From Amyelois transitella (taxonomy: Eukaryota > Arthropoda > Insecta > Lepidoptera > Pyralidae), in the NCBI RefSeq assembly GCF_032362555.1, contig NC_083513.1:10788001-10852000 (forward strand): DNA of 64,000 bases, written 5' to 3'. A program made the position numbers and the translations under genes. Positions within the stretch are counted from its first letter, which is position 1, and the number at the start of each line of letters is the position of its first letter. Below are positions 3,501 through 24,150 of this stretch, piece by piece. Below the pieces are notes generated by a model, which did not search any database, was not told the DNA's origin, and was given only the letters and a program-made list of their open reading frames with translations.

Positions 3501-6500
3501 ACGCTATATCACCGTTCAGGAACAAATCTGTCTTGTTGTATCTGAGAATAAAGAGTTTCAGTAGAATAGAATAGATTTATTTTCAAAATTGGATACAAGG
3601 TGTCACTTATTGACGTCACATAACTTAAATCTAATTATAACCACTACCGCTTCCAAAACGCATGTTCTACATTTGCGCTTTGGAAGCGGCGGAACAAACT
3701 ACGTTGCAGCATTTTCATCGGACGTCAATTTACAAATATAGATCTCTTAAATCTAAATCGTGGACGAATGCACATTGTCTACATTAAAAATCATGAATGA
3801 ATGTAGAACTAATTATGTCAATAGAAAAGATTATATACACACATATATAAGTGCATCATATATTTGTCCCAGGTGGTAGACCGCCTATAGTCTATTACTG
3901 TACTCATTTTAGTTAAAAATACATACATACATATAATCACATCTTAAAAACTTGCGGGGTAGACAGAGCTAACAGTCTTGGACTGATAGGCCACATTCAG
4001 CTTTTTGGCTTGATGATTGAATTGAGATTCAAATAGTGGCAGGTTGCTAGCCCATCGCCTAAAAGAAGAATCCCAATTTTATAAGCCTATCCCTTAATCA
4101 CATTTTAGGACATCCATGGAAAAGAGAAGGAGTGGTCCTATTCTTATTTCAATTAGTGCCTGGAACCACCCTACTACACTCTTACCTGCCAGTGTGTCAA
4201 TGTCAATGTCAAAGTCAATAAAAAAAAATCACTCACTTAGAACAATTGTGCGGCTTGACGCCCCTGATAAAGTTCAACATCTCGTAGACGTTAACTTTCT
4301 CCGTGTGGAGCGCGGCCGGACCCGAGGTGGCGAGAAGGAGTGGTCCTATTCTTATTTCAGTTAGTGTCTGGAACCACCCTACAATCTCTCTTGCCAGTGT
4401 GTCAATGTCAATGTCAAAGTCAATAAAAAAAGTCACTCACTTAGAACAGTTGTGCGGCTGGACGCCCCTGATAAAGTTCAACATCTCGTAGACGTTAACT
4501 TTCTCCGTATGGAGCGCGGCCGGGCCCCGAGGTGGCGAGGAGTGGTCCTATTCTTATTTCAATTAGTGCCTGGAACCACCCTACACTCTCTCTTGCCAGT
4601 GTGTCAATGTTAATGTCAAAGTCAATAAAAAAAAAAAGTCACTCACTTAGAACAGTTGTGCGGCTGGACGCCCCTGATAAAGTTCAACATCTCGTAGACG
4701 TTAACTTTCTCCGTGTGGGCGCGGCGGGGCCCGAGATGGCGAGAAGGAGTGGTCCTATTCTTATTTCAGTTAGTGCCTGGAACCACCCTACACTCTCTCT
4801 TGCCAGTGTGTCAATGTCAATGTCAAAGTCAATAAAAAAAAATCACTCACTTAGAACAGTTGTGCGGCTGGACGCCCCTGATAAAGTTCAACATCTCGTA
4901 GACGTTAAGTTTCTCCGTGTGGGCGCGGCGGGGCCCGAGGTGGCGAGAAGGAGTGGTCCCATTCTTATTTCAGTTAGTGCCGGGAACCACCCTACACTCT
5001 TACCTGCTAGTGTGTCAATGTCACTGTCAATGTCAATAAAATAAAAAAATCACTCACTTAGAACAATTGTGCGGCTGGAAGCTCCTGATAAAGTTCAAAT
5101 AAAAAAAAAATACACTTACTTAGAACAATTGTGCGGCTGGACGCCCCTGATAAAGTTCAGCATCTCGTAGACGTTAACTTTCTCCGTGTGGAGAGCGGCG
5201 GGGCCCGAGGTGGCGTTCACGTACTCCGAGTACTGGTCGAGGTACAGGGCGCGGATGAACGGGTGGGCCTTCTCCCATTTCACGGGCAAGAGTTGGATCC
5301 CTGGGGACAAAAAATATGTATATAATAGGTATATATAAAAAGAGAATAGGACAACTCCATTTCTTTCTCATGGATGTTGTAAAAGGCGACTAAGGTAACT
5401 TTTCAAAAAAGGTTTCCGTCTGAATTTCTGTGTATGTAGCTGCGTACTAGTGTAGTTTGTTCCGCCGCTGCTTCTACACATGCGCTTTGGAAGCGGTAGT
5501 AGTTATTATTAGATTTAAGGATGTGACGTCAAAAAGTGATACTTTGTGTTGTATACAATTTTTAAAATAACTATACTATTCTATTTCCCTACCCTGCAAG
5601 ACCTGAGTTGTCAACTCCACAATCTCAGAAATTCTTAGAAAGCATTAAAATATTTATTTCAAAACTAGCTATTGCACTACTTAACCTACTGTTGGCAATT
5701 TTCGAAAATGTGCCCAATGTTGGAAACCTTCGGGAGGTTAATTCTATGTTCGTATCAAAGGGTATAGCCGGATAAGTATGACGATCTGGCCTCCAAATGA
5801 GAACCTTTATCGAAACTTATGTTCTAATATCGCCTTGATGTACAAACACAATTTATGTACTTTTCGCGGCCAGCTTTCGCTTTGACCTTGAGATATGGGA
5901 AAAAATAATCGCACGCATGACTTTTATTCAAAGTCATATATCTCAAAAATTAATTACGCTAGAGAGATGAGACCAACGCGAGTTTTTAGATTACATTGCA
6001 GAGTATATCATATATTATTTTCAAATTTTTAGAGTATATTTATATATAAAAAAAAATTAAAAAATAAGTAAATCATAATTTTTTTTTCATGTTCTCTGAG
6101 ACTTACAATCACGAAAATAATATATGTTATGCTCCTTTACGTGCTCTATTACTCATAAAAATTTGGTAAAAAAAAAGTTGGTGCAACACTTTGTAAAAAA
6201 AAAAAATTTGATTAGCGCCTTCTACTATACCCTTGTTCTATAAGGCCTACATTACATTTTATTCATTTTTTCGAAGTGTTGCACCAACTTGATTTTATTC
6301 ACAGGCTCGTATCAATTTTCACAGGCTTTATCTTACTTGGCCGAAATAATGGACGATCAAAATAATCTTTTAGTACAATATGTGAAATCAGCATCTAATA
6401 TCATTAAAGCAGAAGTAAAATCAAGGCATATAAATAGTATTGTAATCATTACCATCGGAAATATAGTGAATGTAAATACGATAGACTTTACTATTTATAT

Positions 6501-23702: not shown

Positions 23703-24150
23703 CCGGCGGTGAGTGCGCAAGCGCAGTTCCTAAATCTATATTTGTACTGGCTGTCCCGGCAAACGTTGTTTTGCCATAAGTGTGGACAACCCTTAACACT
23801 TAGGGGTATGAAAAGTAGATGTTGGCCGATTCTCGGACCTACTGAATATCCCGACGCCGAGCCGGCCCACGCGCGTTCCTCGCAGGCCGACAGCGTGCGC
23901 AGGCAGTGCTGCCAGTAGCCGGTGAGTGCGCAAGCGCAGTTCCTAAATCTATATTTGTACTGGCTGTCCCGGCAAACGTTGTTTTGCCATAAGTGTGGAC
24001 AACCCTTAACACTTAGGGGTATGAAAAGTAGATGTTGGCCGATTCTCGGACCTACTGAATATCCCGACGCCGAGCCGGCCCACGCGCGTTCCTCGCAGGC
24101 CGACAGCGTGCGCAGGCAGTGCTGCCAGTAGCCGGCGGTGCAAGCGCAGT
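23636..24150 (+). repeat. tandem copies of the Rab11 C-terminal coding end
   Basis: A 213 bp unit. The authentic end is at 23636-23702; copies of the codons for [10 protein letters not shown] plus stop occur again at about 23880-23918 and 24093-24131. Each unit also carries a piece of another repeat (CTGTCCCGGCAAACGTTG), seen in reverse near 63020-63048. The donor-like GGTGAGTGCGC after the stop is copied once and is broken in the last unit. The open frames crossing the copies are by-products, not genes. Confidence 0.92.

Follow-up and report, generated by a model that had tools for sequence, protein, structure and literature searches.

Tandem copies of exon tails lie downstream, and not upstream, of intact exons in sampled genes of Amyelois transitella

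Introduction

Why should three neighbouring genes carry tandem copies of the ends of their own exons, each array following an exon that is still intact? The question is raised by a 64,000-nucleotide stretch of DNA from Amyelois transitella (the window, G000:C9:10788001-10852000, in a genome of 327 Mb and 33 contigs). The window contains a minus-strand GPR158-like receptor gene, named from PF22572 matches to two exons in the gene region; mRpL1, where PF00687 (Ribosomal_L1) matches two exons with E values of 0.003 and 3.6e-5, both below the curated cut-off; Rab11, identified by phmmer against PDB Rab11A (E 3e-47) and by a PF00071 match; and glutathione S-transferases, the extent of whose cluster was taken from open frames (several genes on both strands, 31600-54000). 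In the receptor gene (500-9810) the GPR158-like extracellular block is seemingly present twice, in exons near 8400/7800 and near 1300/600. A 40-bp direct repeat (681-719 and 818-857) lies directly 5' of a probable receptor acceptor.

Four arrays in the window

A sequence-only reading of this DNA had described four tandem duplications that straddle 5' splice sites. All four arrays (A1 to A4) were recovered by TRF, by repeat families and by self-comparison of the window, and for A1, A3 and A4 also by unit alignments. The features are as follows.

5120..5300, minus strand: intact receptor exon 5, an open reading frame without stop; donor GTAAGT at 5119-5114
4124..5215, minus strand: array A1 (TRF part 4124-5098, 204 bp x 4.7; unit alignments)
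3950..4180, minus strand: interspersed repeat after the last A1 unit (blast to other window copies)
11580..11747, plus strand: intact mRpL1 exon (PF00687, E 0.003; the 3.6e-5 match is to the next exon); donor GTATAG
11731..12071, plus strand: array A2 (TRF, 24 bp x 14.2)
19015..19247, plus strand: intact Rab11 exon 3 (phmmer, PF00071); donor GTGAGT
19142..20156, plus strand: array A3 (TRF in two parts, unit alignments)
19520..19716, plus strand: interspersed repeat inserted within A3, with relatives at 12217-12421 and 41358-41563 (minus)
23569..23702, plus strand: last coding exon of Rab11, ending in RRQCCQ; stop TAG at 23700-23702
23634..24166, plus strand: array A4 (TRF, 213 bp x 2.5; unit alignments)

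The A1 unit joins the last ~95 bp of exon 5, an exon with no Pfam match of its own, to a donor GTGAGT and ~108 bp of intron, and a nested 62-bp duplication (5035-5159) sits between exon 5 and the first unit. The units terminate within the head of an element that we take to be SINE-like, a fuller copy of which follows the last unit at 3950..4180; the A1 duplication is therefore younger than this element. According to the unit alignment the copies are frameshifted, copies 2 and 3 by the loss of 1 bp each and copy 4 by the gain of 1 bp. The A2 unit consists of the last 17 bp of the mRpL1 exon and GTATAGT, and the array sequence has one match in the genome. In A3 a 193-bp unit, made up of the last ~106 bp of Rab11 exon 3, the donor GTGAGT and 87 bp of intron, is present four times, with a frameshifting 1-bp loss in all three extra copies (unit alignment).

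A4 lies in the same gene as A3, and its unit contains the last ~66 coding bp, the stop codon, the donor-like sequence GGTGAGT and ~30 bp more. The donor-like site is 6 bp 3' of the Rab11 stop codon. A 108-bp TE fragment follows the first two of the three copies and is missing after the last, so that three exon pieces have two TE fragments between them; 23707-23919 is identical to 23920-24132. In each copy the short coding piece is retained, and the last one has lost the donor. Judged against other copies of the element, the TE fragment lacks the element's 3' end. Such a 3'-truncated fragment alternating with an exon tail resembles filler DNA at a repaired break.

By gene structure, straddling of a 5' splice site holds for A1, A2 and A3, but A4 extends across the stop codon of Rab11 and a donor-like GGTGAGT. 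The remaining structural claims of the sequence-only reading agree with our data: the events were separate (repeat-family analysis keeps the units apart), the layout recurs, and the true exon is complete and open at all four arrays.

TRF with a score of at least 100 and a period of at least 15 returned 17 arrays for the window together with 200 kb of flank on its left. Five of them are the four loci (A3 counting as two parts), and the other 12 have no exon-end overlap recognisable by eye. When 35 approximate window exons were each compared with their own 600-bp surroundings, same-strand downstream copies were found for four, which are the A1 to A4 exons only. The counts are small: none of the 15 approximate glutathione S-transferase exons has a same-strand exon-tail copy in its surroundings, versus 4 of the 20 other window exons with one downstream. 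Two glutathione S-transferase exons gave short opposite-strand downstream matches (31 bp at 81% and 24 bp at 92%). The sole same-strand upstream match among the 35 exons (rec10, the 40-bp repeat at 681-719 and 818-857, 85%) looks intronic because it lies 5' of a probable acceptor.

Polarity across the genome

Exons outside the window were sampled from two families. The table has 91 PF00071 rows that end no later than model position 150, and 76 of these were taken, picked before their DNA was seen; two rows left out lie in the window, and 13 were omitted from a hand-copied list, again before the DNA was seen. Before merging, the Ras flanks extended 300 bp upstream and 450 bp downstream, a choice that favours the downstream side. 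For kinases, 61 exon-like rows were hand-picked from 148 and shuffled, and the first 20 were taken with flanks of 400 bp on either side. Five of the 76 Ras-family exons have same-strand copies in the next intron: L027, L031, L033, L043 and L059. From their translations we take L027 to be RGK-like, L033 Ral-like, L043 Rab23-like and L059 Cdc42-like. The L059 copy is old and weak, with 24 exonic bp. One kinase exon of 20 (L082) is followed by a 75-bp internal exon piece (88%) that starts ~27 bp into the next intron, is 76 bp away from its template and contains neither donor nor exon end. In the preceding intron, same-strand exon copies were found for 0 of the 76 Ras-family and 0 of the 20 kinase exons within flanks of 300-400 bp.

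A further source of cases was nine Pfam family tables with 753 rows and expectation ceilings of 0.001, 0.1 or 10. First-look candidates had been scored in part for Ras (150 of 161), Pkinase (130 of 534), p450 (92 of 252) and myosin (65 of 125), and in full for kinesin, Cpn60, tRNA-synt_1, HECT and G-alpha. Short copies escape the Ras table, for which the ceiling was strictest (0.001), and the Rab11 copies are absent from it. Reading by eye, which is incomplete, gave seven cases, noticed because they are conspicuous; all seven lie downstream of their exon and all were confirmed in the DNA. One is an exon on C1 that its translation suggests to be Rab5-like, after which the Ras table (120 rows) lists three end-copies and the DNA shows an array of 252 bp x 3.6 with the donor GTGAGT inside it. 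On C28 (3984-3999 kb) one myosin gene has arrays at two exons, L103 (150 bp x 3.5, units identical) and L104 (three copies), just as Rab11 has A3 and A4. Two chaperonin exons, L105 (185 bp x 3.6) and L108 (two copies), and a HECT ligase exon, L106 (122 bp x 5.2), add three more. The seventh is a kinesin exon on C2 (L101/L102) with ~160-bp units, represented by 20 table rows and one further copy in the DNA ahead of the next exon, so that the intron, ~3.7 kb long, contains the tail of the exon before it in at least 21 copies (two pieces within G000:C2:12291850-12295850 were read). Each complete kinesin unit read ends in a (CATA)n run, and the open frames in the table are ~1300-1440 codons long. 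By eye, no case was seen among the rows for p450 (93), tRNA-synt_1 (25), G-alpha (41) and Pkinase (148).

Several other overlapping rows were not counted because they resemble intron run-on alignments, single-frame rows or whole alternative exons. These are, by eye, kinesin C20:9390587 and C17:5965348; myosin C11:2351454, C1:3530825, C12:10165935 and the set at C12:10167-10168 kb; HECT C2:9488689; tRNA-synt_1 C2:6677850; and G-alpha C8:3635634. Small overlaps may be missing from this list, for which the DNA was consulted at two further candidates only: Pkinase C4:7923162 (L080) shows no exon repeat and kinesin C6:9742504 (L107) shows no repeat, and neither was counted.

The comparison of donors with acceptors that the sequence-only reading had called for was made on these sampled exons and family tables, and gave 13 downstream and 0 upstream cases outside the window (two-sided sign test, 0.0002). 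The four window arrays, all downstream, had raised the question and are kept out of this count. Without L059 and L082 the ratio is 11 to 0 (sign test, 0.001), and the six sampled cases by themselves give 0.03, or one-sided 0.039 when the longer downstream Ras flank is allowed for. Acceptor-side copies amount to zero across every DNA sample and table examined. The exon-tail copies are direct, on the same strand, nearly always adjacent and of differing ages, and besides the window loci they occur on ten contigs.

This spread bears on two explanations. A local hotspot, which the sequence-only reading had considered as a local mutational process, is not borne out: 6 of 96 sampled exons on many contigs have copies against 4 of 35 in the window (Fisher p 0.46), although the numbers are small and the window itself was chosen for its arrays. 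An assembly artefact would be compatible with the identical stretches in A4 and the identical units of myosin L103, but many arrays have diverged copies bearing private changes, lie on many contigs and always occupy the same side of the exon, so that we regard this explanation as scarcely credible.

The reading we prefer, with a probability of roughly 0.6, is that exon-tail repeats are ordinary small duplications, kept where the intact copy is met first, which then multiplied and, in most young arrays, were partly homogenised. The initial event would be a head-to-tail duplication with its left end inside the exon and its right end in the noncoding DNA after it, which may have originated by end joining or template switching at staggered breaks. 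It would persist because the cell, in splicing and in translation, comes to the complete exon with its first donor, or to the first stop, ahead of the spare piece; duplication of an exon start would instead set a broken piece in front of the real exon. Tolerance thus implies polarity: a spare tail comes second, and a spare head would come first. A4 fits this reading-order rule with no splicing required. Once two copies are present, unequal exchange could add further copies and keep the donor stretch alike.

On this reading the copies would be largely harmless. Reading through the true donor leads to an immediate stop in A1, A2 and A3 and to a stop within 11 codons in L103, L105, L106 and L108; use of a spare donor there should therefore mostly yield lost mRNA. 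Against this, the frame past the donor stays open for 43 codons in L022 and ~65 codons in L027, and it does not close within the stretch read at the start of the kinesin array. L082, an internal piece without a donor, and the old and weak L059 also sit poorly with our reading.

Density on the donor side

Polarity follows from tolerance, but tolerance by itself predicts that the donor side should be no denser in duplications than introns are, and the sampled donor side is denser. The background used here is 12 unique local direct repeats in the 200-kb flank, a single region whose count includes some AT-rich low-complexity pairs. Relative to this background the 96 sampled exons should have 0.82 copies on the donor side, and six were observed (P 0.0002). 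If decay is assumed to be twofold slower, the expectation rises to 1.64 (P 0.007), and to 2.5 if it is threefold slower (P 0.04). The zero on the acceptor side fits the same background, with P from 0.44 (onefold) to 0.19 (twofold). Together these values suggest, but do not prove, a donor-specific excess of duplication. Among the explanations offered by the sequence-only reading tolerance is the best supported and also predicts the one-sidedness, although by itself it does not account for the density.

The excess may instead reflect a process tied to transcription or splicing that duplicates DNA at or just after 5' splice sites, with selection merely pruning the outcome. Breaks at sites of RNA polymerase pausing at donors, or at RNA-DNA hybrids at the step from exon to intron, would be examples. 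Besides the density, which stays above that of noncoding DNA if decay is taken to be twofold slower, copy numbers point in this direction: many donor arrays have three or more copies, and kinesin at least 21 besides the exon, against fewer than three in 8 of the 10 arrays of the 200-kb flank. The excess becomes modest under slower decay, however, the background is one 200-kb region, and the end points of the units are not fixed. In the window arrays and L027 the units start 17-106 bp inside the exon (A4 counted to the donor-like GT) and end 7-167 bp past the donor. We therefore hold a donor-tied process to be possible but doubtful. The broadest form of this idea, in which a genome-wide transcription- or splicing-linked process makes and expands 5' splice-site duplications at several per cent of exons, and exchange alters the last codons of real exons, we put forward only tentatively and consider rather improbable.

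Junctions, exchange and decay of the copies

A clean three-flank comparison gives 1 shared bp at the junction of A1 and 4 bp (TTGT at the unit ends) in A2. At the kinesin junction, CAT (3 bp) is common to the printed flanks, by eye, at the end of the (CATA)n run. The junction of A3 has a 3-bp insertion and that of A4 the 108-bp TE fragment. These few features would fit end joining or template switching, thinly documented as they are.

TE sequence in or beside A1, A3 and A4, and by eye also at L027 and L033, could mean that transposon insertions with long target-site duplications, trimmed later, left the tandem exon tails, and in the 200-kb flank direct repeats of 55 and 67 bp do flank SINE-like elements. 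Such elements are dense in this DNA generally, however, and no TE with a complete 3' end was found between copies: the printed units of A2, L103, L105 and L106 contain no repeat recognisable by eye, and the A4 fragment is truncated at the 3' end, which target-primed insertion is not expected to produce. Transposition is thus a very unlikely source of the arrays. The flanking repeats just mentioned each enclose a single SINE-like element (67 bp at L014:3364-3776; 55 bp from L011:9668 into L012) and are long for target-site duplications; the one in L014 adjoins an exon-like open frame with GTATGT.

The copies resemble the true exon most closely next to the donor. Identity between exon and copies reaches 97-100% over the last 40 exonic bp in A1, A3, A4, L022 and L027, while exon sequence farther upstream is ~76-95% and intron sequence 79-95% identical (100% for the L022 intron). 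A3 has a stretch of 100 bp around the donor that is the same in four copies, as against up to 13 differing sites in the first 46 bp. Mutation at a uniform rate could hardly cause this likeness of donor ends; unequal exchange or gene conversion with the true exon would explain it, the alternative being constraint on the donor region. The signal is not universal, which also counts against our reading. Copy 2 of L104 lacks it (46/46 upstream versus 39/40 in the last part), and in L031 it is reversed (48/64 upstream versus 26/40 in the last 40 bp, where there is a gap). L043 and the third copy of L104, both old, show the same slope at low identity.

Conservation of the donor-adjacent exon end in the same five arrays, together with the GT donor that most copies retain by eye, might also be expected if spare donors were functional, for instance in holding U1 or tuning splicing, and were kept by selection. 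Yet the last A4 copy has lost its donor, as have one L033 copy and one L059 copy; layout and gene types differ from case to case, and exchange with the true exon accounts for the conservation. We judge a selected function to be highly improbable. Decay in the coding part differs among arrays: older copies are broken, by the frameshifts in A1 and A3 and by stops in the L033 and L043 copies, which speaks for our preferred reading, and the exon pieces of A4, kinesin, L103 and L106 are nearly or fully intact, without an acceptor.

Relation to known systems

Several known processes produce comparable repeats. End joining at staggered breaks with overhangs of 43-50 bp, made by Cas9 nicks in cells, yields small tandem duplications, a much-studied class (PMC8355091). 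The arrays resemble these as short, direct, adjacent head-to-tail copies, and possibly in the little microhomology at the few junctions that could be compared; L082, whose copy lacks the exon end, does not have this head-to-tail form. The arrays differ from that system in that they are germline arrays, with units mostly of 120-250 bp, often in several copies, and only downstream of the exon.

Repair-mediated proximal duplications, a force in the shaping of primate genomes, have a mean length of 162 bp and include some exon or splice-site sequence; pairs within 50 bp were removed to exclude tandem duplications, and of the 824 donors in a table 4 are partial exon/intron sequences (PMC2671141). 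Exon polarity is not reported in the part of that paper available to us. L082 is similar as a local copy of comparable length. Such duplications are defined as more than 50 bp apart and within a TE (Pace et al.), whereas our array copies abut their template, and L082, although separated by 76 bp, has no TE around the copy by eye.

The sequence-only reading had also seen the arrangement that tandem-duplication models of intron gain need, and this comparison holds only loosely. In those models duplication of a coding AG|GT provides both the acceptor and the donor of a new intron (PMC2891723). Tandem copying of splice-motif sequence is common to both situations (PMC2891723, PMC4974935), but the site copied here is a donor that was already present (donor-like in A4), no acceptor is involved, and the window units start inside the exon. 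The intron therefore becomes longer and gains spare donors, and no new intron is formed directly. Nor are these whole-exon duplications, in which a copy has its own acceptor: the window copies begin inside the exon, and some are frameshifted. Intronic VNTRs and minisatellites are likewise multi-copy tandem arrays in introns (PMC5954066); unlike them, the present arrays have as their unit the end of the host exon and its donor. Donor-sided exon-tail arrays were recognised nowhere in the open-access literature searched. Within that literature the mechanism is of a known kind, and the genome-wide polar pattern seems to be unreported.

Implications

With the donor side, the acceptor side and the intron interior serving as natural controls for one another, the pattern separates where duplications arise from where they are tolerated, two things that are usually confounded. 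The exchange signal suggests that some coding exon ends co-evolve with adjoining junk copies, which bears on the reading of structural variants and on gene annotation. If the pattern is general, exon-tail duplication would make introns grow in a directional way and supply them with spare splice sites and minisatellites, all of which can be counted in any annotated genome.
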